Below, piece after piece: positions 6,688 through 36,704 of a stretch of DNA of 36,978 nt. The translations under genes and the position numbers were made by a program. How positions within the stretch are numbered: the stretch's first letter is position 1; every line of letters starts with the position of its first letter. The DNA lies in the IMG/VR virus record IMGVR_UViG_3300040801_001541, positions 1 to 36,978 of that record; one strand, given 5' to 3'. The DNA is from a virus. Under the pieces are notes generated by a model. It searched no databases, was not told the DNA's origin, and saw only the letters and a list, made by a program, of their open reading frames with translations.

Positions 6688-6690
6688 GGT

Positions 6691-18988: not shown

Positions 18989-19030
18989 TTCGGGACCGAG
19001 AGGTCGGCAGTTCGAATCTGCCCAGCCCGA
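18989..19030 (+). other. attP: attP core: 3' fragment of a tRNA-Pro(CGG) gene
   Basis: TTCGGGA (18989-18995) reads as an anticodon loop with CGG. It is followed by variable-loop AGGTC, T-stem GGCAG (19006-19010), T-loop TTCGAAT, CTGCC and the 3' acceptor strand CAGCCCG with discriminator A at 19030. Bases before 18989 do not pair with the anticodon stem, so only the 3' part is here. It would restore the host tRNA on integration. No CCA follows. The integrase gene starts 125 bases downstream, the classical arrangement. Confidence 0.88.
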
Positions 19031-19069
19031 CTTTAAACCCCTACAGAGTAACGAGTTACGAGATGCAGA

Positions 19070-19154: not shown

Positions 19155-20444
19155 ATGGAGAAAACCTACGTCGTGGGGAGCAGGGAGTTCCGTCTCTGGC
19201 TCTATCGTGGTTACTGGTACGCTGTCTGGCGGGACCCCGCCGGGAAGAAGCGGAAGAAGACGCTCAAAACGAAGCGCCGCGACGTCGCGGAGGCGCGGAT
19301 CCCGGAGCTCGCTGAGCAGCTCGACGCGGAGACGCGGCCGACCTTCGGGCAGTACGTGGACCGGCTCCTCGAGGAGGGCGACGAGTACCTCTCCCAGCGC
19401 GGTCTCACCGAGCAGACGGTCTACGCGAAGAAGCGCTGCATCGAGATCCTGAAGAAGCAGTTCGGCTCCGACGTCCTGGGCGAGACGCGCGAGGCGAACA
19501 TCGAGAAGTGGCTCCGGATGGGGAAGTACGCGCCGAGCTACCAGGGCGAGATCATGGACGCGTACAAGTTCGTGATGCGCCAGGCGAAGCGGGACCGGTT
19601 CGACGTGCAGATCCCGGAGTTCTACCGGCCAGATCGGAAGGTGACGCGGCGCTCGTCGCTCGAGCCGGAGGAGGTCCGCGCGCTCTTCCCGGATTCGATC
19701 GAGAAGATCAGCGCACTCTACGAAGAGGACGAGGACGGCCACGGGGTCATGTTCGGGCTACTCTACCGGACGATTCTGCACGCGGGGCTCCGCCCAGGGG
19801 AAGGTCGCGCGATCGGGCGGCACCAGCTCTATCTCGACGATGGGGTGCTCGTCGTCTCGCGCCGGCTTGGACGCCACAACGAGGTGCTCGAGCTCAAGAA
19901 GCGAAAGTACGGCGACTCGGACGTGTTCCGTCTCGTCCCGCTCCCGGATCGGACGGTAGAGCTCCTGCGATGGTGGATCGAGACGACCGAGCCGCAGGAC
20001 TTCCTCTTCCTCTACCATGGGGAGCCGGTTCGACAGCGGTACATCTCGGAGCGGTGGGCGAAGGCGCTCACGCGCGTTCGGATCGGCCCGGAGAAGAAGC
20101 CGTTCGAGCTCGCCGGTCGGAAGATCGACGTCCAGGCGCTCCGCGTGACGTACCGCAGCATGACCGAAGGATGGCTCCCGCGTGCGTTCCTTCTCGGCGC
20201 GATGGGTCACCGCTCAGCGGACGTGCACGACGGGTACCTCCGGCACCTCGAGCGACAGGTCCAGGCGGTCGGGAAGCATCGCGGCGAGACGAATGAGGCG
20301 TGGACACTCGACCATGGAAAGGCAACGCGCGTAGACCGCACAAAAAACAGTCGCGATCAGACAGGCCCTTCTCCGAGAATAGAAGACGGGGGAGGCGAGG
20401 CTCATGAGCAAGTACACGGAGCGGCATTTCGAGGAGAGGGATAG
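19155..20444 (+). CDS. int: Tyrosine recombinase integrase
   Basis: The 429-residue protein starts with an arm-binding AP2-like region (WLYRGYWYAVWRDPAGKKRKK, about residues 15-60), then a SAM-like core-binding domain (about 62-160), then the catalytic domain. Catalytic positions are Arg213 in HAGLRPGEGR, Lys in the 249-251 region, Arg330 in VQALRVTYRS, His352 in MGHRS and Tyr361 in DGYLRH, with normal spacing. The HxLR histidine is Gln327 here, an unusual replacement, though some integrases vary at it. The gene faces away from the att core and probably drives integration into a tRNA-Pro gene. The last 45 residues are low-complexity and overlap the next gene by 41 bases. Confidence 0.92.
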   Translation: MEKTYVVGSREFRLWLYRGYWYAVWRDPAGKKRKKTLKTKRRDVAEARIPELAEQLDAETRPTFGQYVDRLLEEGDEYLSQRGLTEQTVYAKKRCIEILKKQFGSDVLGETREANIEKWLRMGKYAPSYQGEIMDAYKFVMRQAKRDRFDVQIPEFYRPDRKVTRRSSLEPEEVRALFPDSIEKISALYEEDEDGHGVMFGLLYRTILHAGLRPGEGRAIGRHQLYLDDGVLVVSRRLGRHNEVLELKKRKYGDSDVFRLVPLPDRTVELLRWWIETTEPQDFLFLYHGEPVRQRYISERWAKALTRVRIGPEKKPFELAGRKIDVQALRVTYRSMTEGWLPRAFLLGAMGHRSADVHDGYLRHLERQVQAVGKHRGETNEAWTLDHGKATRVDRTKNSRDQTGPSPRIEDGGGEAHEQVHGAAFRGEG

Positions 20445-22307: not shown

Positions 22308-22685
22308 CTATGGATCGTCGTCGGTCATGAACGGTACGTCTGCCAGGTTACGGTTTTTCACCACAAGGTTCAGCCGCTTCACGTAATCGAGCAGCTTCTT
22401 TGGCTCAATCTTCAGATCAATCAAGCGCACCTCAAGGTGCCCGTTCGCGTCGGCATGCGCACGGATGTTGTCAATCGAATCACCGTACTTCGATCGATCG
22501 ACGACGATGAGCCGGGCACCGAAGTAGTCGCCCTCACCGACGTATATGTCAATCCCAACGGCGAAGACGTCGTCAGGGACTCCGCTTTCTTGCGCCAGTC
22601 GATTAAGCAAACCCGCGTTGTGTCCATCGCATGATACGGTGCCTGTGTAGTCCCTATACTGGGTGGTTGCCTGTACTTCGTTCAT
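22308..22685 (-). CDS. Accessory protein, unknown
   Basis: The 125-residue protein is the last gene of the leftward accessory group. It starts at ATG 22685 with an AGGAGAAGAAGGAG-type ribosome site. It reads EVQATTQYRDYTGTVSCDGH, an alternating hydrophobic pattern, then IDNIRAHADANGHLEVRLID and a basic C-terminal helix. No family is recognised. It is convergent with the DUF5131 gene and 32 bases from it. Codon use is less G/C-biased than in the structural genes, as in the rest of this group. Confidence 0.65.
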   Translation of the reverse strand: MNEVQATTQYRDYTGTVSCDGHNAGLLNRLAQESGVPDDVFAVGIDIYVGEGDYFGARLIVVDRSKYGDSIDNIRAHADANGHLEVRLIDLKIEPKKLLDYVKRLNLVVKNRNLADVPFMTDDDP

Positions 22686-22743
22686 ACTCTCCTTCTTCTC
22701 CTGTTCTTGAGTTCTCGCCGAGTCTCAGATAGACCCTCGATTG

Positions 22744-23295
22744 CTACTCCTCGTCATCCAGCTCTCCGAGCGTGCACTCCCACGGGTCGTCCTCGTCCTC
22801 ATCAGTCAAGTGCTTTCGTGCTTCTTCTTCCGTGTCGTAGATCTCGCCCTCGTCGCGAGTCCGCCAACCAACCACGTAGTCCCGGGCCCGGTCCGCCGCG
22901 GCTTCGAGGATCTCGACCTCATGGTCCCACTTCTGCTCCGTTCGATCGGTCTGAGCGTTCGATGCCTTGTCTTGAGCCTGGTCTATCTTCTTCTGCAGCG
23001 CCTGTAGCTTCGCGAGCGTCGTCACGCCGCGCGCGATCTCCGAGATTCGTGCTTTGTCCTCGTCGGCAGTAGGAAGGCCTGCGGCTCTCCTTTCCTGGGC
23101 CTGTTGCTGAGCCTGCTGCTGCTTGGCGCTCGCATCCAGTACTTGATTCATGAATCGCGGAGCGATGACAAACAGCGCTCCAAGGACAGCGACCGCGCTG
23201 CCAATGGTGGGGAAGAAGAAGCCGCCGGTGCCCCAGGTGATGACCCAGATCCCGAAGGCAAGAAACACGGCTCCAATGATTCGCGTCGTCTTCAT
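22744..23295 (-). CDS. Membrane protein with two TM helices and acidic tail
   Basis: The 183-residue product starts at ATG 23295, preceded by GAGGAGAG; an in-frame upstream extension is not protein-like. Residues about 6-20 and 28-46 are transmembrane helices (GAVFLAFGIWVITWG, IGSAVAVLGALFVIA). They are followed by a Gln-rich coiled coil (KQQQAQQQAQERRAAG), another coiled coil to about residue 130, and a strongly acidic C-terminus (LTDEDEDDPWE, ELDDEE). The architecture suggests a cytoplasmic helical domain anchored in the inner membrane. Possible roles include superinfection exclusion in the lysogen; nothing in the sequence proves it. Confidence 0.7.
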   Translation of the reverse strand: MKTTRIIGAVFLAFGIWVITWGTGGFFFPTIGSAVAVLGALFVIAPRFMNQVLDASAKQQQAQQQAQERRAAGLPTADEDKARISEIARGVTTLAKLQALQKKIDQAQDKASNAQTDRTEQKWDHEVEILEAAADRARDYVVGWRTRDEGEIYDTEEEARKHLTDEDEDDPWECTLGELDDEE

Positions 23296-23335
23296 ACTCT
23301 CTCCTCTGTGTTCGCTGCCGACGACGGCTTGGTAG

Positions 23336-23521
23336 TCAATCCTGCTCTGCCGACGTCCAGCTCTCGGCAGTCTCATCCCACGTCCGCAGCTCCCTCCGGC
23401 CGCACTGGCGGCACTCGTAGGTGCGGACAGTCAGTTGATCGGATTCCGTTGTGACGTCCAGGAGCTCGCCTCCGCACCGCGGGCAGCGGTCACGGAGGCT
23501 CATGGCCATTTGCAGCTTCAT
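23336..23521 (-). CDS. Zinc-ribbon protein
   Basis: The 61-residue protein carries two CxxC pairs, Cys13/Cys16 (DRCPRCGGEL) and Cys37/Cys40 (YECRQCGRREL), which together form a zinc ribbon. The end is Trp/Glu-rich. It starts in an ATGA overlap with the stop of the exported protein gene, so they are co-translated. Zinc ribbons of this size bind nucleic acid or protein; no specific partner is evident. Confidence 0.75.
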   Translation of the reverse strand: MKLQMAMSLRDRCPRCGGELLDVTTESDQLTVRTYECRQCGRRELRTWDETAESWTSAEQD

Positions 23522-24246
23522 AGTCCCTCGGTTTGGGTTTCGCTGCGGGTAGATTCGATGAGATCTCGGTGCTCAACACTGTCGTAGACGATGTGCGTCG
23601 AGATCTCGTAATTGTTGCCCATAAGGAGCATGCTTACTCGCGTGTGGCTTAACTCCCAACTGGTGAGGAACGAACCCCGTCCGGAGCTGATAGCGAGTCC
23701 CCACCGCTCTCGGTCACTGCGATAGAGGCGATCAATCGACTCGCTGTCGATGTCAGGCTCGCCATACAACCCGATCAGGCGGCTCTTGAGGTCCCGGTAT
23801 TGGGAAACATATCGGTTCGGGTTGCTATGTTCCTCAACGATCGAGTACCCTCCACTCACAAGCATGCCATCGATGAAATCGAAGAAGGCTATTGCATCGA
23901 GCCCAGAGACACGAACCGGGTAGACGAGGCTTCCGCCGCTGGTGCGGTCGGGCTCCCCCTCCGATTCAATTACCGCCGCCTCACTCGCTCCCCAGCTTAC
24001 TCCTCGGAATCCAGATGTAGTCTCCGTCGAGCTTGTCTCCGGAGCTGACTCCTTTGAAGAAGCCCCCAATTGCGCTGATAGGACGGCGATGTAGCGCGTA
24101 AGCGCGACGGCCTTCTCTTCGTTCGATTCGATGCCATCAATCTCCCGGAGAGCCTCCAGAATCCGTCCGGGGGCGACCGCCTCCTGGGCAAACGTCATCG
24201 ATCCAATCGTCAACACGATCATCACCGCAACCAGCACTCTCTTCAT
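23518..24246 (-). CDS. Exported protein, candidate lysogenic conversion factor
   Basis: The 242-residue product has a clear signal peptide: MKRVLVAVMIVLTIGSMTFA with likely cleavage before QEAVAP. The mature part begins with a helical segment (ILEALREIDGIESNEEKAVA), a Ser/Thr linker at about residues 60-80, and then a folded domain starting FRGVSWGASEAAVIESEGEP, a WG-type opening common in small secreted bacterial proteins. YRDLKSRLIGLYGEPD and RERWGLAISSG follow. Codon use is less GC-rich than in phage core genes. Lying between attP and the repressor on the lysogen-expressed strand, it is the best candidate for a host-changing gene. GAAGGAGAG precedes the ATG. Confidence 0.75.
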   Translation of the reverse strand: MKRVLVAVMIVLTIGSMTFAQEAVAPGRILEALREIDGIESNEEKAVALTRYIAVLSAQLGASSKESAPETSSTETTSGFRGVSWGASEAAVIESEGEPDRTSGGSLVYPVRVSGLDAIAFFDFIDGMLVSGGYSIVEEHSNPNRYVSQYRDLKSRLIGLYGEPDIDSESIDRLYRSDRERWGLAISSGRGSFLTSWELSHTRVSMLLMGNNYEISTHIVYDSVEHRDLIESTRSETQTEGL

Positions 24247-24336: not shown

Positions 24337-24546
24337 TTACGTTCCGACGTCCTCGCGATCCGGTTTGAATGTGGGCGCAGGTTCCGAGCGCTCGCCGGCG
24401 TTCTTCTCGCTTTGCTCCATCTCGTGCATCAAGTCAGAAAGTAGCACATTGATCTCGCCGGATAGAGTGATGCCGTGCCTCTCAGCGCGAGTCTTCACCC
24501 ATTCATAGACCTCTTCCTTCAGATTGACACTCTGTTTCCTTGGCAT
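24337..24546 (-). CDS. Ribbon-helix-helix repressor candidate
   Basis: The 69-residue protein starts MPRKQSVNLKEEVYEWVKTR, then AERHGITLSGEINVLLSDLMHE. The short basic strand, the two helices and the Gly/Ser turn match the Arc/CopG RHH fold, which binds DNA as dimers of dimers. An upstream in-frame extension exists but ATG 24546 is the natural start, 16 bases after the predicted transcription start. It is transcribed divergently from the early operon across a 105-base control region full of repeated half-sites, so it most likely maintains lysogeny. The Glu/Arg-rich end (residues 45-69) is probably disordered. Confidence 0.75.
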   Translation of the reverse strand: MPRKQSVNLKEEVYEWVKTRAERHGITLSGEINVLLSDLMHEMEQSEKNAGERSEPAPTFKPDREDVGT

Positions 24547-24561
24547 TGTTGGTCCCCCACG

Positions 24562-24589
24562 AGAACCCATTATAGCGCCACAGAACCCA
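24562..24589. promoter_or_regulatory. Operator direct repeats AGAACCCA at the leftward promoter
   Basis: AGAACCCA occurs at 24562-24569 and 24582-24589, 20 bases apart (two helical turns). One copy lies between the -10 and start, the other inside the spacer. The related AGCACCC occurs as an inverted pair at the rightward promoter. A shared half-site AG(A/C)ACCC at both promoters points to one regulator controlling both. Confidence 0.7.
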
Positions 24590-24597
24590 CTGTGCAA
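24569..24597 (-). promoter_or_regulatory. Leftward repressor promoter
   Basis: On the - strand TTGCAC (24597-24592) and a perfect TATAAT (24574-24569) are separated by exactly 17 bases. This is the best sigma70-like promoter seen in the window. Transcription should begin near 24562, upstream of the RHH repressor ATG at 24546. Repeats AGAACCCA overlap its spacer and its downstream edge. Confidence 0.82.
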
Positions 24598-24615
24598 GTT
24601 TTGTGCCGATTATGC

Positions 24616-24644
24616 TTTACATAGCACCCAACGGGTGCTACTAT
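24616..24644 (+). promoter_or_regulatory. Rightward early promoter with palindromic operator
   Basis: TTTACA (24616-24621) and TACTAT (24639-24644) are 17 bases apart. The spacer is almost exactly filled by a perfect palindrome: TAGCACCC (24622-24629), AAC, GGGTGCTA (24633-24640). A repressor bound there would exclude RNA polymerase. The start would fall about 24650-24652, at the ATG of the next gene, so the mRNA may be leaderless. Confidence 0.78.
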
Positions 24645-24651
24645 ATTCCGC

Positions 24652-24834
24652 ATGGCAGAAGAAGTAACCCAGCAGGTGCGTGAGGAAGTCAGGGTGAACG
24701 TTGAGCTGAGCGACGATTTGCATCGCGAGCTCAAGGAAATCGCCCGGCGAGAAAAGCGTTCATTGCGGCAGCAGATCGCGTACATGCTCGAGCGGGCCCG
24801 TGAGCAGGAACACGAACAGGAAATCGCGCAGTGA
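24652..24834 (+). CDS. Second ribbon-helix-helix protein (Cro-like role)
   Basis: The 60-residue protein has VRVNVELSDDLHRELKEIA, the strand and first helix of a CopG-type RHH fold, then KRSLRQQIAYMLERAREQE as the second helix, with an acidic end. It is the first gene of the early operon and lies across the control region from the other RHH gene. That makes it a likely Cro-type counter-regulator; an antitoxin would be expected to have a toxin neighbour, and none is seen. No ribosome site precedes ATG 24652, in keeping with a leaderless start. It overlaps the next gene by four bases. Confidence 0.7.
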   Translation: MAEEVTQQVREEVRVNVELSDDLHRELKEIARREKRSLRQQIAYMLERAREQEHEQEIAQ

Positions 24835-25646
24835 ATCTCGAGCTTGTAGATCACGACGATCTTGGCGAGATCGCCTCCCGGGTAAACGACGAGTACGCGC
24901 TCATGACCGGCGACATGACGCGTGCCGTTCAGAGAGCGATCAGGATCGGGGAGCTACTGACCCAGGCGAAGGCAGATGTCGCGCACGGCGAGTGGCTCCC
25001 GTGGATTCAACAGAACCTGGTATTCAGCGAGCGGCACGCTCGGAAGTACATGCAGGTCTATGCAAATCGGTCACGCGTGGCCGATTTGGGGGCCTCCAGC
25101 CTCCGCGAAGCCGTCGCCCTCCTCGCGGAGCCGAAGGACGAGCCGGCGGAGTCCGAAGACGTCCAGACGTCGGCTCCAACGGAACCGCAGCGGGCGCCCG
25201 ATATCACTCCCGTCCTCGACGAAGATCCTGATCCCGTCCCCGAGTACCGCAACGATCCAGAGCTCGAGCGGGCGCTCAAGGCGGCAACAGAGCGCGAAAA
25301 GATGTACGCCGCGAAGATCGAGGCGTCCGGACGTGCAATCGCGGAGAAAGAGCGGGAGCTCGCGAAGCTGCGGAAGCTCGAGGCGGACAAAGAGCGCGTG
25401 GAGACGGCGCTCCGGGATCTCCAGCGGCTGGAGGCGAGGAAGACCGAGCTCTTCAAAGATGCCGAGTCTACGAAGGTAGTCCACCAGACGCTCGTCCGGT
25501 CGCGAGAGTTCTTCACGCGAGAGTGCATGCAGATCCCGGCGCTGAAGCTGCGGCCGGAGTCGGTTCGGGTGATGAAGCAGGACTTTGAGGGGCTCGTCGA
25601 GCTCGTTGAGAACTGGCTCGAAGCGGTGAAGGAGAGGTTCCTGTGA
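24831..25646 (+). CDS. DUF3102-like early protein
   Basis: The 271-residue protein starts at GTG 24831. Residues about 20-75 contain AVQRAIRIGELLTQAKADV, HGEWLPWIQQNLVFSERHARKYMQ and VYAN, the DUF3102 pattern found in phage and plasmid early genes, where ParB-like or regulatory roles are suspected. Then follows an acidic linker and a long coiled coil (about 145-215, Glu/Lys/Arg-rich), and a final helical part. The stop overlaps the next GTG. It may act in DNA replication or gene control, but the family has no firm role. Confidence 0.75.
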   Translation: MNLELVDHDDLGEIASRVNDEYALMTGDMTRAVQRAIRIGELLTQAKADVAHGEWLPWIQQNLVFSERHARKYMQVYANRSRVADLGASSLREAVALLAEPKDEPAESEDVQTSAPTEPQRAPDITPVLDEDPDPVPEYRNDPELERALKAATEREKMYAAKIEASGRAIAEKERELAKLRKLEADKERVETALRDLQRLEARKTELFKDAESTKVVHQTLVRSREFFTRECMQIPALKLRPESVRVMKQDFEGLVELVENWLEAVKERFL

Positions 25647-26200
25647 ACAGAGAGCTCTTTTCACCGGGCGAGCATCCCTTCGACCCCTCGTCCCTTCCTC
25701 CCGATCAGCAGGTGTCCTACTACCTCCAGGCGACACAAAACGCGATGGCCCTCGCCATAGAGCAACTGCGACACGAGAACGAACAGTTCCGCGCCGAGCA
25801 GCAAGCTCGAAACGAGGAGATGGCTGAAGGGCTTCGACAGGTAGCCGATGCTTCAGCGCGCCGGATGAAGGACTCAGAGGAGTACTACGTGCGAACGGTG
25901 CTCGGGAGAGTGTTTGCACCGGAGATCTCGGCGAAGCGGATGACGAAGCTGCTCCAGGTTGTCGGGATCGTCGGTGCGCATGGCGTTCCGCTTTCGCAGT
26001 ACCGCTCCGGCAACGAACCTTTGGCGAAGCCGAAGCCGTTCAGCGAGTACCCAACATGGTTGTTCCACGCACAGAAAACGATGCGTCGGATCAACACCTG
26101 GCTGGAAGAGCATGAGTACTACGAAGACTTCCACACGACGACGACGAAGAACGATCGGGACGCGTTCATCGACATGCTCTATGAGGAGTTTTGCTCGTGA
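25643..26200 (+). CDS. Early protein with coiled coil, unknown
   Basis: The 185-residue protein starts at GTG 25643 in overlap with the previous gene. It has a Pro-rich beginning (FSPGEHPFDPSSLPPDQQ), a coiled coil at about residues 30-80, and a C-terminal domain with RVFAPEISAKRMTKLLQVVG and FHAQKTMRRINTWLEEHEYY. The latter reads like the C-terminal part of phage antirepressor or KilA-C-type proteins (a helix, GxV, then a basic helix), but the match is not strong enough to name. It is placed in the early operon where such proteins occur. Confidence 0.6.
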   Translation: MNRELFSPGEHPFDPSSLPPDQQVSYYLQATQNAMALAIEQLRHENEQFRAEQQARNEEMAEGLRQVADASARRMKDSEEYYVRTVLGRVFAPEISAKRMTKLLQVVGIVGAHGVPLSQYRSGNEPLAKPKPFSEYPTWLFHAQKTMRRINTWLEEHEYYEDFHTTTTKNDRDAFIDMLYEEFCS

Positions 26201-26213
26201 GGCAGGCGACCGC

Positions 26214-26504
26214 ATGAATCCCGTCGACGACCACGCTCTGATCGCCGCGTCACGTCTTCTCGACGTGCCCACGGAATACCTCGAGCGGGTCGTCGAGCGG
26301 TATCGGGAGACCGACGGGTGGAAGGGGCCGGAGTTCGATCTCGACTACGAGCGAGCCGAGCGGCTCACGGGCGTCGCGAAGACGACGCTCCGAGCTCGCG
26401 TGCATCGCGGCTACTACGTCGAGGGTGCGGACTACATCCGGAAGGGACCGCGCACGGTGCGGTTCTCGCGCCGGATCGTCCAGCAGGAGCGCGAACGTGG
26501 GTGA
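26214..26504 (+). CDS. Helix-turn-helix DNA-binding protein
   Basis: The 96-residue product starts at ATG 26214. The C-terminal half, AERLTGVAKTTLRARVHRGY followed by YIRKGPRTVRFSRR, is a MerR/excisionase-type winged HTH: first helix, turn, recognition helix with TLRARV, wing, and a final basic strand. It could be the excisionase or an early transcription factor. Position in the early operon far from the integrase argues slightly against excisionase. It overlaps the RusA gene by eight bases. Confidence 0.65.
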   Translation: MNPVDDHALIAASRLLDVPTEYLERVVERYRETDGWKGPEFDLDYERAERLTGVAKTTLRARVHRGYYVEGADYIRKGPRTVRFSRRIVQQERERG

Positions 26505-26922
26505 GTGGCGGTTCCTGGGCGAGCTCACCGTCTGCGCGAAGCCGGTCGCACAGTCCCGACCGCGCGCCTACGTGCGGCCGAACGGGAAGGCTGGCGTGCA
26601 CGACGACGGGAAAAGCCGGGGCTGGAAGGCGGCGATCATCGGCCAGGCGATGCGGGTGAGGCTCCCGCGCGGGATCGCGGCGCCGATCAGGCTCGACGTG
26701 ACGTTCGAGCTCCCGCGCCCAAAGCGCCTGGGGGCGGGTGCGAACGAGCCGCATGTGAACGTGCCGGACCTGGACAACCTGCTGAAGGCGGTGATGGACG
26801 CGCTCAGCGAGTACGGCGTCTGGAAGGACGATCGGCAGGTCGCCGAGATCCGGGCGAGCAAGTGGTATCACGCAGCGGGCGGCACGCCGCTCGCGGTCGT
26901 GGTGATCGATCGAATGGAGTAG
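26497..26922 (+). CDS. rusA: RusA-family Holliday junction resolvase
   Basis: Starting at GTG 26497 (AGGAGCG upstream), the 141-residue protein begins with GEWRFLGELTVCAKPVAQSR, where the Lys/Ser/Arg-containing first strand is typical. It shows the catalytic VPDLDNLLKAVMDAL (Asp91, Asp93, Asp101) and VWKDDRQVAEI (Asp111/Asp112), all key RusA residues. These dimeric nucleases cut four-way junctions formed during replication and recombination before packaging. The length is close to the family norm of about 120-140. Confidence 0.92.
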   Translation: MGEWRFLGELTVCAKPVAQSRPRAYVRPNGKAGVHDDGKSRGWKAAIIGQAMRVRLPRGIAAPIRLDVTFELPRPKRLGAGANEPHVNVPDLDNLLKAVMDALSEYGVWKDDRQVAEIRASKWYHAAGGTPLAVVVIDRME

Positions 26923-27293
26923 GCAACGATCGCGGCGAGCCGACTGGGAGGCGTCGCGATCACAAGGGGAACTGCAGTCGTGGTGAATGCAGAGCACATC
27001 GAACAGAGAATGAACACGCGCAGCGCCGGCGATGCCGACTCGTGGGAGCGCTCGCGTGCAGAAGTCAGCCTCCTTCTGACTGGTGGATACCTCCAATCGT
27101 CGGCAGAGGCGCGCAACGCGTCCCGGCGGGTGGGAGGCCCGCACTTGCACTCGAGGCCCGCGCTCCCCGCGGGTTACCTGGCGGTGAAGCTCCGCGGCGA
27201 CGGCGATGGTCCCCTCCTTCCGTCACTCCGCGCGAAGTCGATCAGCGGGTTCGAGTCCCGTCGGGTGCATACCCCACGAGGGAAGGAGGCAAC
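26923..27293. other. Gene-poor stretch with several inverted repeats
   Basis: This 371-base stretch between rusA and the 27294 gene breaks the otherwise gap-free operon. It holds: an inverted repeat GATCGCG (26928-26934) / CGCGATC (26955-26961); a hairpin AGTCAG / CTGACT (27063-27068, 27076-27081) with loop CCTCCTT; CCCGCG / CGCGGG (27157-27162, 27168-27173); and a tRNA-like T-arm (27245-27261). A structured RNA or cis-acting DNA element is possible. One open frame runs through it (26980-27312). Confidence 0.5.
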
Positions 27294-27312
27294 ATGCCAG
27301 GTGATTACGTGA
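26980..27312 (+). CDS. Possible small protein in the gene-poor stretch
   Basis: A 110-residue frame from GTG 26980 (second GTG at 26983) has mostly G/C third positions and an AAGGGG-type site nine bases upstream. The product is Arg/Ser/Gly-rich with no recognised motif (RSAGDADSWERSRAEVSLLL, then a Pro/Arg-rich region). It overlaps the next gene by 19 bases. High GC alone can keep such frames open, and the underlying inverted repeats point rather to RNA or DNA structure. It is reported as uncertain. Confidence 0.3.
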   Translation: MVNAEHIEQRMNTRSAGDADSWERSRAEVSLLLTGGYLQSSAEARNASRRVGGPHLHSRPALPAGYLAVKLRGDGDGPLLPSLRAKSISGFESRRVHTPRGKEATCQVIT

Positions 27313-27638
27313 ACGTGACCATGCAGACGGTGATGGGCGCGCTCGAGGATCGGTTCAACGCAGCGCTCGCGCGTGTCGTCCGAGACATCGCGGATCCCGC
27401 GAAGCCTGCGGAAGCGACTCGGGAGATCGTCATGCGCTTGAAGCTGAAGCCGGACGACGAGAGGTCGAGCGTCGTCATGGAGACCGACATCGACACGAAG
27501 CTCAGCCGGTCCAAGCCGACGAAGAGCTTCATGCTCGTCTCGATGGGCGACAACGGGCCGGTCGCGAAGGTATCGAACGCAAAGCAGCTCACACTTCAGG
27601 AGCAGCTCGAAGCCGCGACCCAGGAGAAGGAGGCGTAG
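27294..27638 (+). CDS. Conserved phage early protein ('replication terminator'-like)
   Basis: The 114-residue product begins after GGAAGGAGG at ATG 27294. It reads MQTVMGALEDRFNAALARVV, then REIVMRLKLKPDDERSSVVM and DTKLSRSKPTKSFMLVSMGD. This arrangement (short helix, then two-strand repeat with KP-DER and K-x-x-PxK) matches a family seen in siphovirus early regions, often annotated without proof as replication terminator protein. It is followed immediately by the partner gene usually found next to it. Its true role is unknown. Confidence 0.7.
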   Translation: MPGDYVNVTMQTVMGALEDRFNAALARVVRDIADPAKPAEATREIVMRLKLKPDDERSSVVMETDIDTKLSRSKPTKSFMLVSMGDNGPVAKVSNAKQLTLQEQLEAATQEKEA

Positions 27639-28391
27639 ATGAACGGTGACACGAACATGAATGGAAACGCAGTCCATGCAATCGCGGACCTTGCTCGTCA
27701 AGGACAGCTCCCTCAGATCGTCACTGAGGACGAGAAGCGCTGGGTCTACTTCGAAGGCAAGCTGACGCCGATCACATGGGATCCGCAACCGGGGTGCATC
27801 GGAGTACTGACGCTGCAGGGACTCGTGGCGTACCTCGAGGCCGACGCACCGTTCACGACCGACGAGCTCCTCGCGGTGGTCGACAGTCCGGCCCGGGTGA
27901 CCGTCTACGGCCCGGAGTCGTCGAAGACGCGGACCCGGCCGGTCATCGCGAAGGCGGAGCTTGACTCGGCGCTGAAGGCGTTCCCATTCGGCAACTGGAT
28001 GGACCAGGAGACGTTCCTGATCGACGCGTACACGCTTCTCGACCGAGAGGCCGGGGACTTCCGGTCCCTGGTGGACTACGCGAGCAAGGTCGTCGACGAG
28101 GAGTCGATCAATCTCTCCGACGATGGGATCTCGCAGTCCGCCGTGTTGCGACGCACGCTCTCCTCTGAGGAGGAGCGTGAAAAGGCGAAGTCCATCGTCT
28201 CCCTCCGGCCGTTCCGCAGTTTCCGCGAGATCGAGCAGCCGACCGGACTGTTCGTGTTCCGGATGAAGAAGAGCCAGCGCGGCGTAGAGTTCGCGCTCTT
28301 CGAGGCAGACGGCGGCTCGTGGCGGCTCGAGGCAATGAAACGGATCGGCGAGTTCGTGCGCGCTGGCGTCCCTGGGCTGGTGGTGGCATGA
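27639..28391 (+). CDS. Conserved phage early protein, partner of 27294
   Basis: The 250-residue protein contains VLTLQGLVAYLEADAPFTTD, FPFGNWMDQETFLIDAYTLL, DDGISQSAVLRRTL and SLRPFRSFREIEQPTGLFVF, ending with EFALFEADGGSWRLEAMKRI. These blocks, particularly RPFRTFxEVEQP and ALFEADGG-W, recur in proteins of early regions of many siphoviruses, in the same order after the preceding gene. The family has similarity to DUF2303-type proteins, but I do not know a demonstrated function; recombination or replication support is a guess. It starts one base after the previous stop region at ATG 27639. Confidence 0.7.
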   Translation: MNGDTNMNGNAVHAIADLARQGQLPQIVTEDEKRWVYFEGKLTPITWDPQPGCIGVLTLQGLVAYLEADAPFTTDELLAVVDSPARVTVYGPESSKTRTRPVIAKAELDSALKAFPFGNWMDQETFLIDAYTLLDREAGDFRSLVDYASKVVDEESINLSDDGISQSAVLRRTLSSEEEREKAKSIVSLRPFRSFREIEQPTGLFVFRMKKSQRGVEFALFEADGGSWRLEAMKRIGEFVRAGVPGLVVA

Positions 28392-28600
28392 GTACCGCGG
28401 CGCCGCAGCAGACCGGACTACTCAACGCATGCCCTACGTGCAGAAGCGATCAGATCGTCACGATCGGCTACCGAGGCGAGTGGTGGTGCGAGTGTCGGCT
28501 CTGCGGCGCCCGCGCGTGGAAGCGCGAGACTCCGAGCGATGCGATCGGAGCGTGGCAGGAGTACGCGCTCAGCCAGGAGGCGGCATGGACAGCACTTTGA
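28388..28600 (+). CDS. Lar-like restriction alleviation / zinc-ribbon protein
   Basis: The 70-residue protein starts in an ATGA overlap. Cys15/Cys18 (ACPTCRS) and Cys34, Cys36, Cys39 (WWCECRLCGARAW) form a zinc ribbon followed by PSDAIGAWQEYA. The C-P-x-C, then C-xx-CGA, then the Ala-Trp helix pattern is that of Lar-family proteins, which modulate type I restriction by boosting modification in Rac prophage. Function here is inferred from the family. Confidence 0.75.
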   Translation: MSTAAPQQTGLLNACPTCRSDQIVTIGYRGEWWCECRLCGARAWKRETPSDAIGAWQEYALSQEAAWTAL

Positions 28601-28803
28601 ACCGGTACGCCGGCGCGTTCGGCTACCTCTCCGGAGCGATCCGGGGCATAGCAGAGCACACGATCGGGCCGAAGCGTCGCGAGCTGCTCGCGGCGGTGGA
28701 AGAGGCCGAATGGTACGCCGAGCACGGGAACCTCTCGGGGCTTCCCGTCGACCCGGCGCGCCTCGAGGCAGCACGAGGAGAGAAGCATGCCGCAGGCAGG
28801 TGA
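28585..28803 (+). CDS. Small early protein, unknown
   Basis: The 72-residue product starts at ATG 28585 after CCAGGAGG. It reads MDSTLNRYAGAFGYLSGAIR followed by two short amphipathic helices (RRELLAAVEEAEWYAEHGNL). It overlaps the preceding gene by 16 bases and the next by 17. No family is recognised. Confidence 0.6.
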   Translation: MDSTLNRYAGAFGYLSGAIRGIAEHTIGPKRRELLAAVEEAEWYAEHGNLSGLPVDPARLEAARGEKHAAGR

Positions 28804-28963
28804 GCGAGTCGGGTTTCACTACCAGGGCCAGTATCTCGAGGCGGACGTGCTCGGCGGGCTCCCGGTGGCGATCTACGCGGGGGACATAGAGATCGAGCCG
28901 TCGCTCGACATGATCCGCGCGGCAACGGCGGCGGTGCGGCACGCGGAGCAGGGGCGAGCATGA
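28787..28963 (+). CDS. Small early protein, unknown (58 residues)
   Basis: Starting at ATG 28787 after ACGAGGAGAG, the 58-residue product reads MPQAGERVGFHYQGQYLEAD, then VAIYAGDIEIEPSLDMIRAA. The third positions are strongly G/C and the gene fills the space between neighbours with overlaps on both sides, so it is probably real. No family is recognised. Confidence 0.6.
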   Translation: MPQAGERVGFHYQGQYLEADVLGGLPVAIYAGDIEIEPSLDMIRAATAAVRHAEQGRA

Positions 28964-29643
28964 GGGTGAAGGAGCTCGCGATTGAGCAGATCGTGACGGC
29001 GAGCAACGTCCGGATCGAGTCGGATGATGAGCTCGGCGATCTCATGGACTCGATCGAGAAACACGGGCTGCTGCAGCCGATCATCGTCCGGCACAAAACG
29101 CTGAAGACCTACGAGGTAGTCGCCGGTCACCGGCGCCTGGCGGCGATGAAGGCACGAAACGAGCAGACCATACCCTGTTACATCAACGACGACATCACGA
29201 ACGAGGACCGAACGGTCATTCAGATCGTAGAGAACGCACAGCGAAAGCAGATGAGCGCTCTCGAGTACGTCGAAGTGTTCGAGCAGCTGCGGAAGAGTCA
29301 CGGACTGTCGCGGTCGCAGATCGGGAAGCTCATCGGGCGCTCGACGTCGTGGATCTCGCACCAGTGCGACGCGGTGAAGCTGAGCGGCTCCCTGGTGGGA
29401 GACGGTGTCGTGCGGAAGAAGGACGTGGCGAAGATGACAGCCGGGCAGCTCATCAACCGCGCTCAGAAGCACGGCATCGGGGTGAAGGGCCGCAGACAGA
29501 CGGAGGACATATCGGTCGCCGCGATCAACTCGACAACGCTCAACGTGCGGTGTCGGGACGCTGCGACGCTCGCGCGCGTGCTCGAGTGGCTCGACGCGCT
29601 GCGGGAAGAGATCCGCAAAGAGACGGAGGGGGTAGAGGCATGA
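28960..29643 (+). CDS. ParB-like DNA-binding protein, no ParA
   Basis: The 227-residue protein has the ParB/Spo0J N-terminal nuclease-like/CTPase module: GLLQPIIVRH, VVAGHRRLAA (GHRR at 56-59) and IVENAQRKQMSALE (ENAQR at 91-95). Then comes a helix-turn-helix (LSRSQIGKLIGRSTSWISHQ, about 117-136) and a helical C-terminus. No ParA gene is in the window, so this is unlikely to be a plasmid-style partition system. Phage ParB-like proteins act as DNA-binding regulators or nicking enzymes. It starts in an ATGA overlap and is followed directly by overlapping small genes. Confidence 0.85.
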   Translation: MRVKELAIEQIVTASNVRIESDDELGDLMDSIEKHGLLQPIIVRHKTLKTYEVVAGHRRLAAMKARNEQTIPCYINDDITNEDRTVIQIVENAQRKQMSALEYVEVFEQLRKSHGLSRSQIGKLIGRSTSWISHQCDAVKLSGSLVGDGVVRKKDVAKMTAGQLINRAQKHGIGVKGRRQTEDISVAAINSTTLNVRCRDAATLARVLEWLDALREEIRKETEGVEA

Positions 29644-29846
29644 AGCATCCAGGAGACGTGATACCGGAGGTCAGGGCGGCGATCGCGGCCGAGCGGCAAG
29701 CGCGTAGATATACGATCGCGAAAGAGTGTTTGGCTGCGATTCTGAAGACCCCGGATCTGATCGCGTTGCTCAAGATGGAGGGCCGGTCACCAGTAGAGTA
29801 CGCGGTGCACCAGACGGACGCGCTGCTCGAGGAGCTGGAGAGATGA
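29640..29846 (+). CDS. Small early protein, unknown
   Basis: The 68-residue product starts in an ATGA overlap with the ParB-like gene. It contains VIPEVRAAIAAERQARRYTI and EYAVHQTDALLEELER, mainly helical. No family is recognised. It overlaps the following ASCH-like gene by four bases, so it is translated with it. Confidence 0.6.
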   Translation: MKHPGDVIPEVRAAIAAERQARRYTIAKECLAAILKTPDLIALLKMEGRSPVEYAVHQTDALLEELER

Positions 29847-30424
29847 CCACGCGTCCCATTCTCATGAGCGGACCGATGGTCCGGGCGATCTTCGACGGGC
29901 GAAAGACGCAGACAAGGCGGGTGGTGAAGCCGCAGCCCGCTCAAGGGCTGTTGGGTCCGCGATCGGAAGACGGTCGGTGGATGATCGGTGGAGCCATCAG
30001 TCAGGTGATCGGAAGGTGCCCCTACGGCCAGCCTGGTGACCTGCTGTGGGTTCGGGAAACTCACTACGTCGCAGAAGGTATGAGAGTCATCTACCGGGCC
30101 GATGATCCCGACGCTTCGGTGCGTTGGACACCGTCGATCTACACGCCGCGATGGGCTTCCCGCCTGACGCTCCACATCACAGACGTGCGCGTGGAGCGGA
30201 TCAACACAATCACGGATGCCGAATGTCGCGCCGAGGGCATTCGACAATACGTGGTGTCGGGCCCGGACCCTGACGGGCGGAGCTACCAGGACTGGCGGAC
30301 GCCATTCAAGGAGCTATGGGATTCGATCAACGAGAATCGTGGCTACGCGTGGGAGAGCAATCCGTGGGTGTGGGTGATCGAGTTCGTGGCGATTCAGCGC
30401 AACGTGGACGAGGTGGCGACATGA
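29843..30424 (+). CDS. ASCH/PUA-like phage protein, copy 1
   Basis: The 193-residue protein begins with RPILMSGPMVRAIFDGRKTQ and TRRVVKPQP, then CPYGQPGDLLWVRETHYV, YRADDPDASVRW and a C-terminal ELWDSINENRGYAWESNPWV. This is the pattern of a widespread phage family (annotated as morphogenetic or ASCH-domain protein) in which the KTQTRR and GDxLWVRE motifs are shared. The ASCH/PUA fold suggests RNA or nucleotide binding; the function is not proven. A close paralogue lies at 35803-36387. The two are highly similar at the DNA level in the middle of the gene. Confidence 0.82.
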   Translation: MTTRPILMSGPMVRAIFDGRKTQTRRVVKPQPAQGLLGPRSEDGRWMIGGAISQVIGRCPYGQPGDLLWVRETHYVAEGMRVIYRADDPDASVRWTPSIYTPRWASRLTLHITDVRVERINTITDAECRAEGIRQYVVSGPDPDGRSYQDWRTPFKELWDSINENRGYAWESNPWVWVIEFVAIQRNVDEVAT

Positions 30425-30657
30425 TCGGCCGCAAGATCGAACCCTTCACGGCATTCAACCAGACGAGGCTCGTGCCGGTAGAGGTGTACGTCAATGGCGA
30501 GCTGGTGGACGGAAGCGACTACCAGGAGACGCTCTGGATGGAGCGCGGCGAGGATTGGTACGCATTCATGAACGACAAGTACCGAGACAAGCGCGTCCGC
30601 GTGGTCAAGCGTGAGGCGTGGCTGAAGGCGACTCCGCTCGACGAGGTGCTCCGATGA
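30421..30657 (+). CDS. Small early protein, unknown
   Basis: The 78-residue product starts in an ATGA overlap with the ASCH-like gene. It reads IGRKIEPFTAFNQTRLVPVE and VYVNGELVDGSDYQETLWME, suggesting a small beta fold with a Trp-rich middle. No family is recognised. Confidence 0.6.
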   Translation: MIGRKIEPFTAFNQTRLVPVEVYVNGELVDGSDYQETLWMERGEDWYAFMNDKYRDKRVRVVKREAWLKATPLDEVLR

Positions 30658-30685
30658 ACGGCCGGCGACACTTCCAGGGGGAATC

Positions 30686-30886
30686 GTGAGACCCGACAGC
30701 ATGTGGTTGATCGAGGGTGAGTGGTTTCCGAGCAAGGACCACGCGCTCACGACCTTCCGATACGCCGTGAAGGCGAAAGACCTGCTCGACGCGCTACAGA
30801 AAGCCGACGTGAAGCTCGCCGGGAAAGACCCGCTGAAGCTAACCGTTTCGCACCTCGGCGTCTGGCCAGATGAGGTGATTCAATGA
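30686..30886 (+). CDS. Small early protein, unknown
   Basis: The 66-residue product starts at GTG 30686 after CAGGGGGA. It reads MWLIEGEWFPSKDHALTTFR then KAKDLLDALQKADVKLAGKD. The 28 bases between it and the previous stop hold only an 11-codon frame that I do not consider a gene. No family is recognised. It overlaps the next gene by four bases. Confidence 0.6.
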   Translation: MRPDSMWLIEGEWFPSKDHALTTFRYAVKAKDLLDALQKADVKLAGKDPLKLTVSHLGVWPDEVIQ

Positions 30887-31305
30887 CCGGCCGTCCACGA
30901 CTCGCGAACACGATCGGCGTCGACGTCCAGGAGCTCATCACCGACCGCGAGGAGGGGCTGAAGGTCGCCGAGATCGCAGAGCGGCATGGGCTGTCGGTGG
31001 GGCAGGTCAACCATCTGGTGAAGTCGGAGGGATGCCTTGAGCAGTGGAAAGCCGCGCTCCCGGGCAGGTCGGGCGAACCGATCCCGTCCGTTGAGAAGGC
31101 GGTCCGCGCGATCATGCGCGAGCACACCGAGCTCACGATCGAGCGTGGTCTCACCGGCGGCTATGTCGCGACGATTGACGACGTACCAGGCGAAGAGCGC
31201 CGGACCCTGCAGCACGCTCTGCACAATGCCCGGAAGGCGCAGGCTGCAAAGACCCCTCAGAAGAACAGTTATCCGATGCAGAGGAATGGAGATTTGAAGG
31301 GATGA
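30883..31305 (+). CDS. Helix-turn-helix early protein
   Basis: The 140-residue product starts in an ATGA overlap. Residues about 24-50 (EGLKVAEIAERHGLSVGQVN) form a clear helix-turn-helix; the basic N-terminus (TGRPRLANT) also suits DNA contact. The middle has EKAVRAIMREHTELTIERGL, and the end is Lys/Gln-rich. It may be a transcription regulator of early genes. The family is not named with certainty. Confidence 0.6.
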   Translation: MTGRPRLANTIGVDVQELITDREEGLKVAEIAERHGLSVGQVNHLVKSEGCLEQWKAALPGRSGEPIPSVEKAVRAIMREHTELTIERGLTGGYVATIDDVPGEERRTLQHALHNARKAQAAKTPQKNSYPMQRNGDLKG

Positions 31306-31613
31306 GGGAAAGCGAGATGGAGACGGACAGGGTCATAGTACCGGTCGGCTGGATCAGCGCGAAGGAACTTCTCCCGGAACATCATCAAGCAGTCGTGTTC
31401 GTCGTCGACTCACCCGAGATTCCAGAGATCCACCGTTCGATCGCTGGCGGGTTCTTCTCGGCGAGAATATCGGCGTTCTTTGACTCTTGTGCAATGTATG
31501 AGTGGCGAGCGTCTCACTGGATGCCCGCTCCGCACCCGCCGTCGGAAACGCTGAAACCCTCCTCTGAGGCGGTTTCGCACCCCAAGCATGACATACTTGG
31601 TGGTATGACATGA
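31302..31613 (+). CDS. DUF551-like protein
   Basis: The 103-residue product starts in an ATGA overlap. It has VGWISAKELLPEHHQAVVFV and MYEWRASHWMPAPHPPSETL, matching the GWIS-x-K-x-LP beginning and the THWMP-PxPP end of DUF551, a family common in phages with no known role. The last 25 residues continue past the normal domain end, into the region of the repeated ATGACAT motif. Confidence 0.75.
   Translation: MRESEMETDRVIVPVGWISAKELLPEHHQAVVFVVDSPEIPEIHRSIAGGFFSARISAFFDSCAMYEWRASHWMPAPHPPSETLKPSSEAVSHPKHDILGGMT
31582..31611. repeat. Inverted and direct repeats at the recombinase start
   Basis: CCAAG (31582-31586) and CTTGG (31596-31600) form an inverted repeat with a nine-base centre, and ATGACAT occurs at 31588-31594 and 31605-31611, overlapping the ATG of the recombinase gene. 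The size is roughly that of a tyrosine recombinase core site, but arms are short and imperfect. Confidence 0.35.
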
Positions 31614-32452
31614 AATACGACCGGGACGCGCTGCTGGCGATCCGAGACTCCTACGTCGACGACACCCGGCTGTTCATCCGCTTTCTCGAGGCACGCAATC
31701 TCGACATGTCGGTGGACGCGCTGCGGGAGTACCTCGACTACCTGAAGGAGAAGGGGTACGCGGTCGAGACGATCGCGAAGCGGATCAAGGGCGCGAAGAA
31801 CCGGCTCTGGCGGGTGCTCCTGACGAACGCGGAGACGATGACGGTGATCGATCGGTTTCGCTTCAAGGAGGAGATCGACGAGATCAAGCCCGGCAAGCGC
31901 ACGTCGATCGAGGTCCCGCTCGACGAGGTCCCTACGCGCGATGAGCGTGCGGCGTTGCTCGCATCCGACGCGGTGTCCGAGCGGGTGAAGTGGTTCGTGA
32001 AGCTCCTTTCAACCAGTGGGCTCCGCGTGAGCGAGCTCGCCGGGATACGGCTCGCCGACTGCCGGCGCGGGCAGGGGTTCTATGCCGTTCGAATCTCGGG
32101 CAAGGGCGACCGGGAGCGGACTGTCTACTGGCGCCCAGCGGAGTTCGAAGGGGCGAGGGCGTTCTTCAACGGAGAGACATATCTCCTCGAGACTCGCGGC
32201 GGCCGCAAGTACGACCGACGAGAGATCTCGGACCCGATCCGCAACTCGTGCCTGGGCGTTCTCGGCAAGAGCTACGGAGCGCACAGCTGGCGGCACTACT
32301 ACGCGACCGAGAAGCTCCTCTCAGGGAGCAGCCTGAAAGCCGTCTCCCAGTACATCGGACACGCAAGCACGAGCCTGACAGGCGACGTGTACATCCACGA
32401 CCGTCTCGGGCCGGACGACATCGAGACGTTCGAAGACCAAGAACAGGGGTAG
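31610..32452 (+). CDS. Second tyrosine recombinase (XerC/D-like)
   Basis: The 280-residue enzyme has the full catalytic set: Arg139 (SGLRVSELAG), Lys165 (SGKGDRERTVYW), His225/Arg228 (AHSWRHYYAT), His251 (IGHAST) and Tyr261 (DVYIHDRL). It has no arm-binding N-terminal domain, only a SAM-like core-binding domain (about 5-95), and is much shorter than the 429-residue integrase. Such enzymes resolve dimers or act at a local site. Its neighbours are early genes with no att site, so a multimer-resolution or plasmid-like role is possible. Confidence 0.88.
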   Translation: MKYDRDALLAIRDSYVDDTRLFIRFLEARNLDMSVDALREYLDYLKEKGYAVETIAKRIKGAKNRLWRVLLTNAETMTVIDRFRFKEEIDEIKPGKRTSIEVPLDEVPTRDERAALLASDAVSERVKWFVKLLSTSGLRVSELAGIRLADCRRGQGFYAVRISGKGDRERTVYWRPAEFEGARAFFNGETYLLETRGGRKYDRREISDPIRNSCLGVLGKSYGAHSWRHYYATEKLLSGSSLKAVSQYIGHASTSLTGDVYIHDRLGPDDIETFEDQEQG

Positions 32453-32454
32453 AT

Positions 32455-32778
32455 ATGCCGAGCGCAGAGATTCGAAAGCAGATGGAGCAGATGAAGCGGA
32501 AGGACGTGAAGCAGGCGTTCGCCACCGCCGGCGACGGCATTATCGGGGGCTCGCTCGAGTTCCTCGCGCGGTACGTCGTGCACATGGAGCGCACGCGCCA
32601 GGCGGTGAAGGACGAGCTCGACCGGGTGCGCCTCGCGCTCGAGGAGTCGAAGGAGCGACACGCGCGCTGGGCAGAGGAAGCGATGCACGAGCGGGAGCTG
32701 CGGCAGACCGTCGAGCAGGGGCTCGACCAGGCGACCGCGGAGCTCTCGTCGGCTCTCGAGGGAGGGATAGAGCGATGA
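32455..32778 (+). CDS. Coiled-coil early protein
   Basis: The 107-residue product starts at ATG 32455. It has a short basic beginning (RKQMEQMKRKDVKQAFATAG), then a GGSLEFLARYVVHMERTRQA helix and a long Glu/Arg coiled coil to the end. It overlaps the next gene by four bases, which encodes a membrane protein. No family is recognised. Confidence 0.6.
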   Translation: MPSAEIRKQMEQMKRKDVKQAFATAGDGIIGGSLEFLARYVVHMERTRQAVKDELDRVRLALEESKERHARWAEEAMHERELRQTVEQGLDQATAELSSALEGGIER

Positions 32779-32972
32779 TCGGTGAATGGAAGCGCAATCC
32801 GGCGGTGTCGATCTTCTCCGCCGGCGCGGCACTGCTGGTCGCGGTGCTCGTCGCGTTTGTGGCGCTCTACGCGGGCGGGGTTCGAGCGGTGCCGATCTGG
32901 CTCGCTCTCGTGCTCTCGATCCTGTCGGCAGGCGGAATGTTTCTCGCCTCCTGGGGGATGGTAGAGTCATGA
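32775..32972 (+). CDS. Small two-TM membrane protein
   Basis: The 65-residue product begins IGEWKRNPAVSIFSAGAALL. Two hydrophobic helices are visible: about residues 14-33 (FSAGAALLVAVLVAFVALYA) and about 40-60 (IWLALVLSILSAGGMFLASW). It has the size and topology of a class II holin, and its stop overlaps the ATG of the M23 peptidase gene. That makes it a holin or antiholin candidate paired with the second M23 enzyme. Confidence 0.65.
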   Translation: MIGEWKRNPAVSIFSAGAALLVAVLVAFVALYAGGVRAVPIWLALVLSILSAGGMFLASWGMVES

Positions 32973-33613
32973 GGCGCGACGTACCCATGATCGCCGCGGT
33001 GCTGCTCCTATGCATCGTGCTCCTCCTGCTCGCGATGATCCTGTTCGAGCGCTCGGTGCGGCAGGGAGCCGAGATCGAGGCGCTCGAGGCCGAGCTCGCG
33101 GCGACGCTCTCTGAGGCCGAGCCACGCTCCGGGGGCGCCGAGAGCGCGCCTCCTCCGCAGCAGGTCGCCACGTCGCGTTACACGTTTCCGATCGCGGAGA
33201 CCGACTACCTCACGCTCACGAGTCCCTACGGCTACCGGATCAGCCCGATCCTGCAGATCGAACGCTATCACCAGGGCGTCGACATCGCGGCGACGTGGAG
33301 AGCCCAGGTCGTTGCGATCGCAGACGGCGAGGTCGTCGAGCACTGGCCGGCGCCCGACGGGTACTTCCGCGGGCACGACGTCTACGGCGGGCTCGTCGTG
33401 GTCGAGCACGCGAACGGCTGGCGATCGCTTTACGCGCACCTCTCCGAGACGCGCGTGCACACCGGATGGTCGGTGCGAGCCGGGCAGGTGATAGGGCGGG
33501 TGGGAAGCACCGGGCAGAGCCGCGGCGCACACCTTCACTTCGAGCTCATGGACGCGACCGGACGCCGGCACAATCCGCTGCTCTACGTGCAGCCGAAAGG
33601 AGGAGAGCGATGA
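32969..33613 (+). CDS. Membrane-anchored M23 metallopeptidase
   Basis: The 214-residue protein has a transmembrane or signal-anchor helix (about residues 7-26, MIAAVLLLCIVLLLLAMILF), a short coiled coil, a Pro-rich linker, and a complete M23 domain (about 75-205). The domain starts TSPYGYRISPILQIERYHQGVD (in part: HQGVD at 101-105), then YAHLSET with His157, and GAHLHFEL with His188 and His190. All zinc ligands and the catalytic His are present. It would cleave murein from the periplasmic side of the inner membrane. A second M23 gene lies in the lysis region, so the two likely have different jobs. Confidence 0.88.
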   Translation: MRRDVPMIAAVLLLCIVLLLLAMILFERSVRQGAEIEALEAELAATLSEAEPRSGGAESAPPPQQVATSRYTFPIAETDYLTLTSPYGYRISPILQIERYHQGVDIAATWRAQVVAIADGEVVEHWPAPDGYFRGHDVYGGLVVVEHANGWRSLYAHLSETRVHTGWSVRAGQVIGRVGSTGQSRGAHLHFELMDATGRRHNPLLYVQPKGGER

Positions 33614-33876
33614 AGCGATGGGTCTATCTCAACGCGGTGTACGTGACGGGGCTCGGCTACGAGCTCGAGGTCACGCGATCCGGGCGGGTGTACGTGCGCG
33701 AGGACGGTCACCTCCAGCGGGCCGACGCGATGGTGACACGCACAGGGATGCTCGCGATCAGTGGACCGCACGAGCAGGCGTTCACGTTGCGGCCGGATAT
33801 GACGCTCGTGGTGCACGGGGACCAGGAGCGGGAGGTGCGGCCGCTCGGAGAGAAGCAGAAGGAGCACAGCGCGTGA
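33610..33876 (+). CDS. Small early protein, unknown
   Basis: The 88-residue product starts in an ATGA overlap with the M23 gene after GGAGGAG. It reads MKRWVYLNAVYVTGLGYELE and SGRVYVREDGHLQRADAMVT, a beta-rich pattern with a basic C-terminus. No family is recognised. The stop overlaps the next GTG. Confidence 0.6.
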   Translation: MKRWVYLNAVYVTGLGYELEVTRSGRVYVREDGHLQRADAMVTRTGMLAISGPHEQAFTLRPDMTLVVHGDQEREVRPLGEKQKEHSA

Positions 33877-34328
33877 GCTACGCAGAGAACACGAGCGTTC
33901 CGGTGGAGCGCAGCAAGGCAGAGATCGAGCGGGTGCTCGAGCGCTACGGTGCGGAGGGGTTCATGTACGGAATCCGGCAGGACCGCGCGGTGATCGCGTT
34001 CGAAGCGAATGCTCGCCACGTCCGGTTCATCCTGCCGTTCCCGGATCCGCAGTCTCCTGAGTTCGTCACGACACCCACGGGCCGCCGGCGGAAGGGCGAC
34101 GCGGTGAACTCCGCCTACGATCAGGAGGTGCGAAGACGCTGGCGCGCGCTCGCCTTGGCGATCAAGGCGAAGCTCGAGGCGGTAGACACCGGCATCACCG
34201 AGTTCGACGAGGAATTCCTCGCGCACATCGTCATGCCGGGCGGGAAGACGGTCGCGGAGACCGCGATCCCGGCGGTGCAGAAGGCATACACGAACGGAGA
34301 GGCGGTGCCGCTTCTCCCGGGCTACTGA
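33873..34328 (+). CDS. Conserved phage protein of unknown function
   Basis: The 151-residue product starts at GTG 33873. It reads SVPVERSKAEIERVLERYGA, GFMYGIRQDRAVIAFEA, RFILPFPDP, RRRWRALALAIKAKLEAVDT and EFDEEFLAHIVMPGGKTVAE, ending LLPGY. These blocks in this order belong to a conserved family found in early regions of many siphoviruses next to replication genes. The function is unknown. It precedes the replication initiator-like gene by 16 bases, fitting that context. Confidence 0.78.
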   Translation: MSYAENTSVPVERSKAEIERVLERYGAEGFMYGIRQDRAVIAFEANARHVRFILPFPDPQSPEFVTTPTGRRRKGDAVNSAYDQEVRRRWRALALAIKAKLEAVDTGITEFDEEFLAHIVMPGGKTVAETAIPAVQKAYTNGEAVPLLPGY

Positions 34329-34344
34329 GAAACTGGGGGCATCT

Positions 34345-35180
<836 letters not shown>

Positions 35181-35184
<4 letters not shown>

Positions 35185-36563: not shown

Positions 36564-36585
36564 GTCCGCTACATATAGCGGACTT
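36562..36585 (+). terminator. Perfect stem-loop after the early operon
   Basis: AAGTCCGCTA (36562-36571) pairs perfectly with TAGCGGACTT (36576-36585) around CATA. It overlaps the stop of the zinc-ribbon gene. No T-run follows, so it could be an operator palindrome as easily as a terminator. Two copies of CCGCAC (36586-36591, 36597-36602) follow, 11 bases apart. Confidence 0.55.
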
Positions 36586-36608
36586 CCGCACATCTACCGC
36601 ACTTTTCA

Positions 36609-36665: not shown

Positions 36666-36704
36666 GTGACGAACTGCTCGAAAGAGCACCTACAAGGAGT
36701 AGCG

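Follow-up and report, generated by a model that had tools for sequence, protein, structure and literature searches.

Ribbon-helix-helix repressors in phage and viral immunity

In phage P22, mnt and arc diverge from a common operator region. The two genes constitute the immI module, in which arc and ant are repressed by Mnt, and Arc in turn represses mnt and has a moderating effect on ant (PMC11016777). This module is not essential for lysogeny (PMC11016777; PMC2629481). A further small ribbon-helix-helix (RHH) protein with a role in lysogeny is F55 of SSV1, an archaeal spindle-shaped fusellovirus. F55 is described as the chief viral factor that maintains lysogeny, binds repeated sites in early promoters as well as in its own promoter and has been reported to interact with host RadA (PMC9608457). 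The first-pass annotation of the locus described here named P22 Arc and Mnt as RHH proteins acting in secondary immunity; control of lysogeny by an RHH protein is, as SSV1 shows, already known. In lambda-type CI/Cro systems, the repressor is an HTH protein, often carrying an S24 domain.

The locus analyzed here shares features with each of these systems. It is located in a virus record of 36,978 bp, the whole of which is referred to as the window, and consists of two small divergent genes for RHH-type proteins, RHH-left and RHH-right, separated by 105 bp. It resembles P22 immI in layout and fold, with a mnt-like and an arc-like gene. However, immI is a secondary region governing Ant, with C2 and Cro located elsewhere, whereas the window pair stands first in the main early operon and searches for C2/CI were negative. 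Further, ant is under control of the RHH pair in P22 while the window has no antirepressor family match; in the one similar prophage locus, L105, a Bro-N protein does follow. With SSV1 F55, the locus shares a small RHH candidate lysogeny regulator and repeated sites, but no divergent RHH antagonist is described in the passages on SSV1 that were consulted. Position, divergent promoters, operator-like dyads and a leftward operon with candidate conversion genes are shared with lambda-type systems, including five relatives of the window. In contrast to these, the leftward protein of the window is an RHH protein rather than a CI-type HTH repressor and has no S24 self-cleavage domain.

We consider it likely that a temperate tailed phage uses this locus as its primary lysogeny switch, with an immI-like pair of RHH proteins at the immC position, where they would replace CI and S24. 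With less confidence, we slightly favor a broader interpretation, namely that a Mnt/Arc-like pair displaced CI at immC in two or more lineages of spirochaete phages (the window and L105), giving CI-free, RHH-only primary switches that are uncoupled from S24 self-cleavage and would require another induction signal.

Genome layout, temperate lifestyle and host

TerS and TerL are encoded at the start of the window and an HNH-like protein at its end, as identified by eye; this arrangement suggests a circularly permuted map. A search for terminal repeats gave none. Every called gene points rightward except those at 22308-24546, and the 105-bp region is the sole point where leftward genes stand back to back with the rightward early operon (Table 1). 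The leftward genes past RHH-left are candidate conversion or exclusion genes of lysogeny, and secreted or membrane proteins are also found downstream of the repressor in relatives.

The phage is very probably temperate, since its integrase gene follows a tRNA-3'-end-like sequence that probably represents the attP core. ARAGORN and Rfam did not detect this sequence, because just the 3' part of a tRNA is present. A partial inverted copy (AGCCGACCTCTCGGT) is located about 120 bp upstream at 18874-18898. Between the integrase gene and the switch, positions 20404-22275 encode TcmP (three-Cys-motif partner, TIGR04474) followed by DUF5131, a pair that matches the PADLOC candidate defence models PDC-M30/M41.

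The host is probably a spirochaete. TerL relatives among species genomes belonged to Spirochaetota in every case found, with a relative at E<=1e-60 in 23 of the 296 sampled spirochaete genomes, and a DUF3102 relative is present in Leptospira phage LE1. The 39-base attP core was not found in the 296 genomes when up to 3 mismatches were allowed.

Table 1 Features of the switch locus and of the regions that frame it
Feature	Position	Strand	Basis
tRNA-3'-end-like sequence, T-arm GGCAG-TTCGAAT-CTGCC canonical	18993..19033	+	by eye
Integrase (phrog_1)	19155..20444	+	E=5.4e-26
Leftward operon beyond RHH-left	22308..24246	-	gene calls, family searches, coding GC
125-aa protein, leftward operon	22308-22685	-	
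Membrane protein, leftward operon	22744-23301	-	
Zinc-ribbon protein, leftward operon	23336-23521	-	
Signal-peptide protein, leftward operon	23518-24246	-	
RHH-left, 69 aa, proposed lysogeny repressor (CI/Mnt position), opens leftward operon	24337..24546	-	Pfam, NCBIfam, AF2, codon-position GC
AGAACCCA half-site copy 1, at predicted leftward start point	24562..24569	+	repeat search
Leftward promoter TTGCAC-17-TATAAT	24569..24597	-	sequence reading and promoter scan
Imperfect dyad CACAG-AACCCA-CTGTG in leftward spacer; includes AGAACCCA copy 2 (24582-24589)	24579..24594	.	sequence reading
Rightward promoter TTTACA-17-TACTAT	24616..24644	+	promoter scan, 9/12 matches
Perfect dyad TAGCACCC-AAC-GGGTGCTA, 8+8 bp arms, proposed main operator	24622..24640	.	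repeat search, shuffles
RHH-right, 60 aa, proposed Arc/Cro-like early regulator, opens rightward early operon	24652..24834	+	Pfam, PHROG
Rightward early operon after RHH-right: DUF3102, RusA, phrog_1029, ParB-like, tyrosine recombinase, DnaD-like replication gene; HNH-like last	24831..36978	+	Pfam, PHROG

The two RHH proteins

RHH-right matches Pfam RHH_5 with an E-value of 2.4e-6, exceeding the gathering score, and the PHROG Arc-like repressor family at 1.2e-4. The Pfam matches of RHH-left, all below gathering, are MatP_C (E=2e-4), FitA-like_RHH (0.0015) and DUF6364 (0.0056). MatP_C is a C-terminal RHH domain, and RHH-left also matches the NCBIfam family MatP (8.5e-4). Judged by these profiles, both proteins fit the RHH (MetJ/Arc) class, RHH-left at scores below gathering. 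Codon-position GC is coding-like in both genes.

An RHH domain consists of an N-terminal strand and two helices that follow it. The AF2 model of RHH-left contains helices at residues 9-23 and 30-50 with a pLDDT of about 93 and, as a single chain, no strand; that of RHH-right is poor and consists of a single long helix. Searches with the single-chain RHH-left model in Foldseek and VIA-align returned chance-level matches only, an uninformative outcome because the ribbon of the RHH fold needs a dimer. IMG/VR yielded no direct homologues of RHH-left, RHH-right, DUF3102, phrog_1029 or the integrase. Tblastn with RHH-right against GenBank phages gave no homologue, and a search of 296 spirochaete genomes with RHH-left gave no close one.

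Promoters and operator-like sequences in the intergenic region

The intergenic region (24547-24651) measures exactly 105 bp and is flanked by the ATG codons of RHH-left at 24546 (minus strand) and RHH-right at 24652 (plus strand). The first-pass annotation had described two small RHH-type genes diverging from it, a promoter-like sequence in each direction, AGAACCCA twice at the leftward promoter and TAGCACCC/GGGTGCTA in the rightward spacer; all coordinates were borne out, both promoters are present at the claimed spacing and each repeat was located where it had been placed. For the leftward promoter, the promoter scan favors TGCACA-16-TATAAT, with the same -10 element and 10/12 matches. Over 17 kb the scan yielded just 5 sites (expectation 2.7), the two divergent promoters among them. 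The rightward -10 element ends just 7 nt upstream of the RHH-right ATG, a proximity which suggests that the RHH-right mRNA is leaderless.

The perfect dyad TAGCACCC-AAC-GGGTGCTA occupies the spacer of the rightward promoter and extends by two bases into the -10 element. The motif AG[AC]ACCC occurs 17 times on both strands of the 36,978 bp, with 4 of these occurrences inside the 105-bp region. Dinucleotide shuffles of the 105 bp gave P=0.007 for dyad arms of at least 8 bp, P=0.04 for a four-member 7-mer family with one degenerate position and P=0.001 for dyad and half-site family jointly. Exact k-mer or half-site repeats by themselves were not significant in this region; the statistical significance depends on the dyad together with the degenerate family.

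Related phages carry CI at the same position

Five relatives, four viral contigs and one spirochaete prophage (L054, L055, L056, L057 and L062), were identified through the window terminase, and the region upstream of TerL is laid out alike in all of them. The leftward gene encodes a CI-type HTH protein (Phage_CI_repr/HTH_3) in each of the five, with an S24 peptidase domain in three (L054, L055, L062). Opposite CI, the relatives encode a small protein of 59-90 aa. In two of them it is RHH-like, with matches to Omega_Repress in L062 (1.4e-4) and to DUF6290 in L057 (0.002); the small rightward proteins of the other relatives gave no convincing family match. An annotated CI repressor is also found at the corresponding place in a DUF3102-bearing phage. 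In L056, positions 5460-7745 hold two successive divergent CI/small-protein pairs, which may be tandem switches.

Promoter geometry at these loci is similar to that of the window. A TTGACA-type rightward promoter is found in all relatives. In the window, as in six of six relative pairs, whose rightward gene is RHH-like or unclassified, the rightward -10 element ends 6-8 nt before the ATG. This spacing suggests that a leaderless mRNA is conserved for the gene at the Cro position. Dyads can be discerned in L056 and L057 and are weak in the remaining three relatives (L054, L055, L062), none being individually significant by shuffle. In two further prophages (L106 and L107), the gene opposite CI is an HTH-type Cro-like one whose leader is ordinary. 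The comparison excludes other spirochaete prophages with related terminases in which no divergent switch was readable at the corresponding place, namely the low-GC set L094-L101 and L109-L113 as well as L102-L104 and L108.

Searches for CI in the window were negative. An HMM built from the CI proteins of the relatives recovered a control CI (LR797314) and had no match in any window ORF, and HTH_3, Phage_CI_repr and S24 had no match among the window proteins scanned. An ORF at 30883-31305 is not CI-like and has a weak sigma-r4/HTH_23-like match. No antirepressor family matched in the window, where the gene after RHH-right encodes a DUF3102 protein.

A similar locus in a spirochaete prophage

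Prophage L105, located in a spirochaete contig of 3,285,855 bp (G146), carries a pair of small genes that diverge at the corresponding place. The leftward gene is followed by a lipoprotein-like gene, the rightward gene directly by one for a Bro-N protein and then by homologues of the window early genes, including phrog_1029 (E=3e-32). HMM searches of the two prophage loci examined detected no CI homologue. In alignments of L105 and the window, the left proteins gave a shuffle P of 0.004 and the right proteins 0/500. Because cross-comparisons likewise score well, these alignments support a common RHH character and less so one-to-one orthology. On family searches, the right protein of L105 has a weak RHH_5 match (0.065) and the left protein no match of its own. 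Intergenic repeats in L105 were not significant.

Proposed mechanism and alternative explanations

The RHH-only switch put forward in the first-pass annotation gains support from the immunity position of the pair in a temperate phage, CI in five syntenic relatives, the lack of a CI homologue among window ORFs and the operator-like dyad in the rightward promoter; with respect to operator binding, direction of repression and antagonism, we carry the proposal forward as a model. In the prophage state, RHH-left would bind the dyad in the rightward promoter and keep the early operon off, while adjusting its own promoter via the AGAACCCA sites. Upon infection or induction, RHH-right would be produced first, from a probably leaderless mRNA, and compete for the same region, thereby turning RHH-left off in a manner comparable to the action of Arc on mnt in P22 immI. 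Since RHH-left has no S24 domain, induction would have to follow a route other than S24 self-cleavage, for which the reported F55-RadA interaction of SSV1 may serve as one precedent.

Alternatively, the pair could be an immI-type secondary module steering an antirepressor or another early function, with a different, unrecognised phage gene encoding the true immunity repressor. Bro-N domains are common in phage antirepressors, and it is a gene with this domain that follows the rightward gene of L105; several early proteins of the window also have no family match. The dispensable Mnt/Arc module of P22 is the precedent for such an arrangement (PMC11016777; PMC2629481). However, the window yielded neither an antirepressor-like gene nor a CI homologue, and the pair occupies the immC position, precisely that of CI in the relatives, where the entire early operon starts. 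We regard a secondary module as unlikely.

RHH proteins also occur as antitoxins, and one or both of the proteins could be a merely self-regulating antitoxin, plasmid-partition adaptor (ParB-III) or recombination accessory protein. Pfam also gives ParD-like, FitA-like and TraY matches, a ParB-like gene is present in the rightward operon and RHH proteins have been described as ParB-III adaptors in plasmid prophages (PMC8026635). Yet neither gene has a toxin-like partner, the neighbours being a signal-peptide protein and a DUF3102 protein, ParA/ParM was not found among the proteins scanned and the integrase and probable attP indicate an integrated prophage. Such functions seem improbable to us, even more so than a secondary module.

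What is unusual about the preferred reading, a primary switch, is the presence of RHH proteins at this position in a tailed bacteriophage whose relatives use CI. Among the best-ranked titles of the open-access literature, none was seen to describe a bacteriophage with an RHH primary repressor. If correct, the reading would mean that an unrelated DNA-binding fold can occupy the lambda-like repressor slot without a change in operon layout, promoter geometry or operator position. Such phages would be without the usual S24/SOS induction and would be overlooked by annotation that searches for CI-type repressors. The locus would also offer a testable model of lysogeny control for a poorly studied host group.

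Additional features of the early operon

A duplicated gene is found at 29800-30424 and 35803-36387. Both proteins contain RPILMSGPMV.AI..GRKTQTRRV and are near-identical over much of their length, and the gene has no Pfam match. A second tyrosine recombinase is encoded at 31610-32452, within the early operon, and may act in dimer resolution or integration. A similar-looking recombinase gene is present at 8439-9293 of L058, whose TerL is 81% identical to that of the window.
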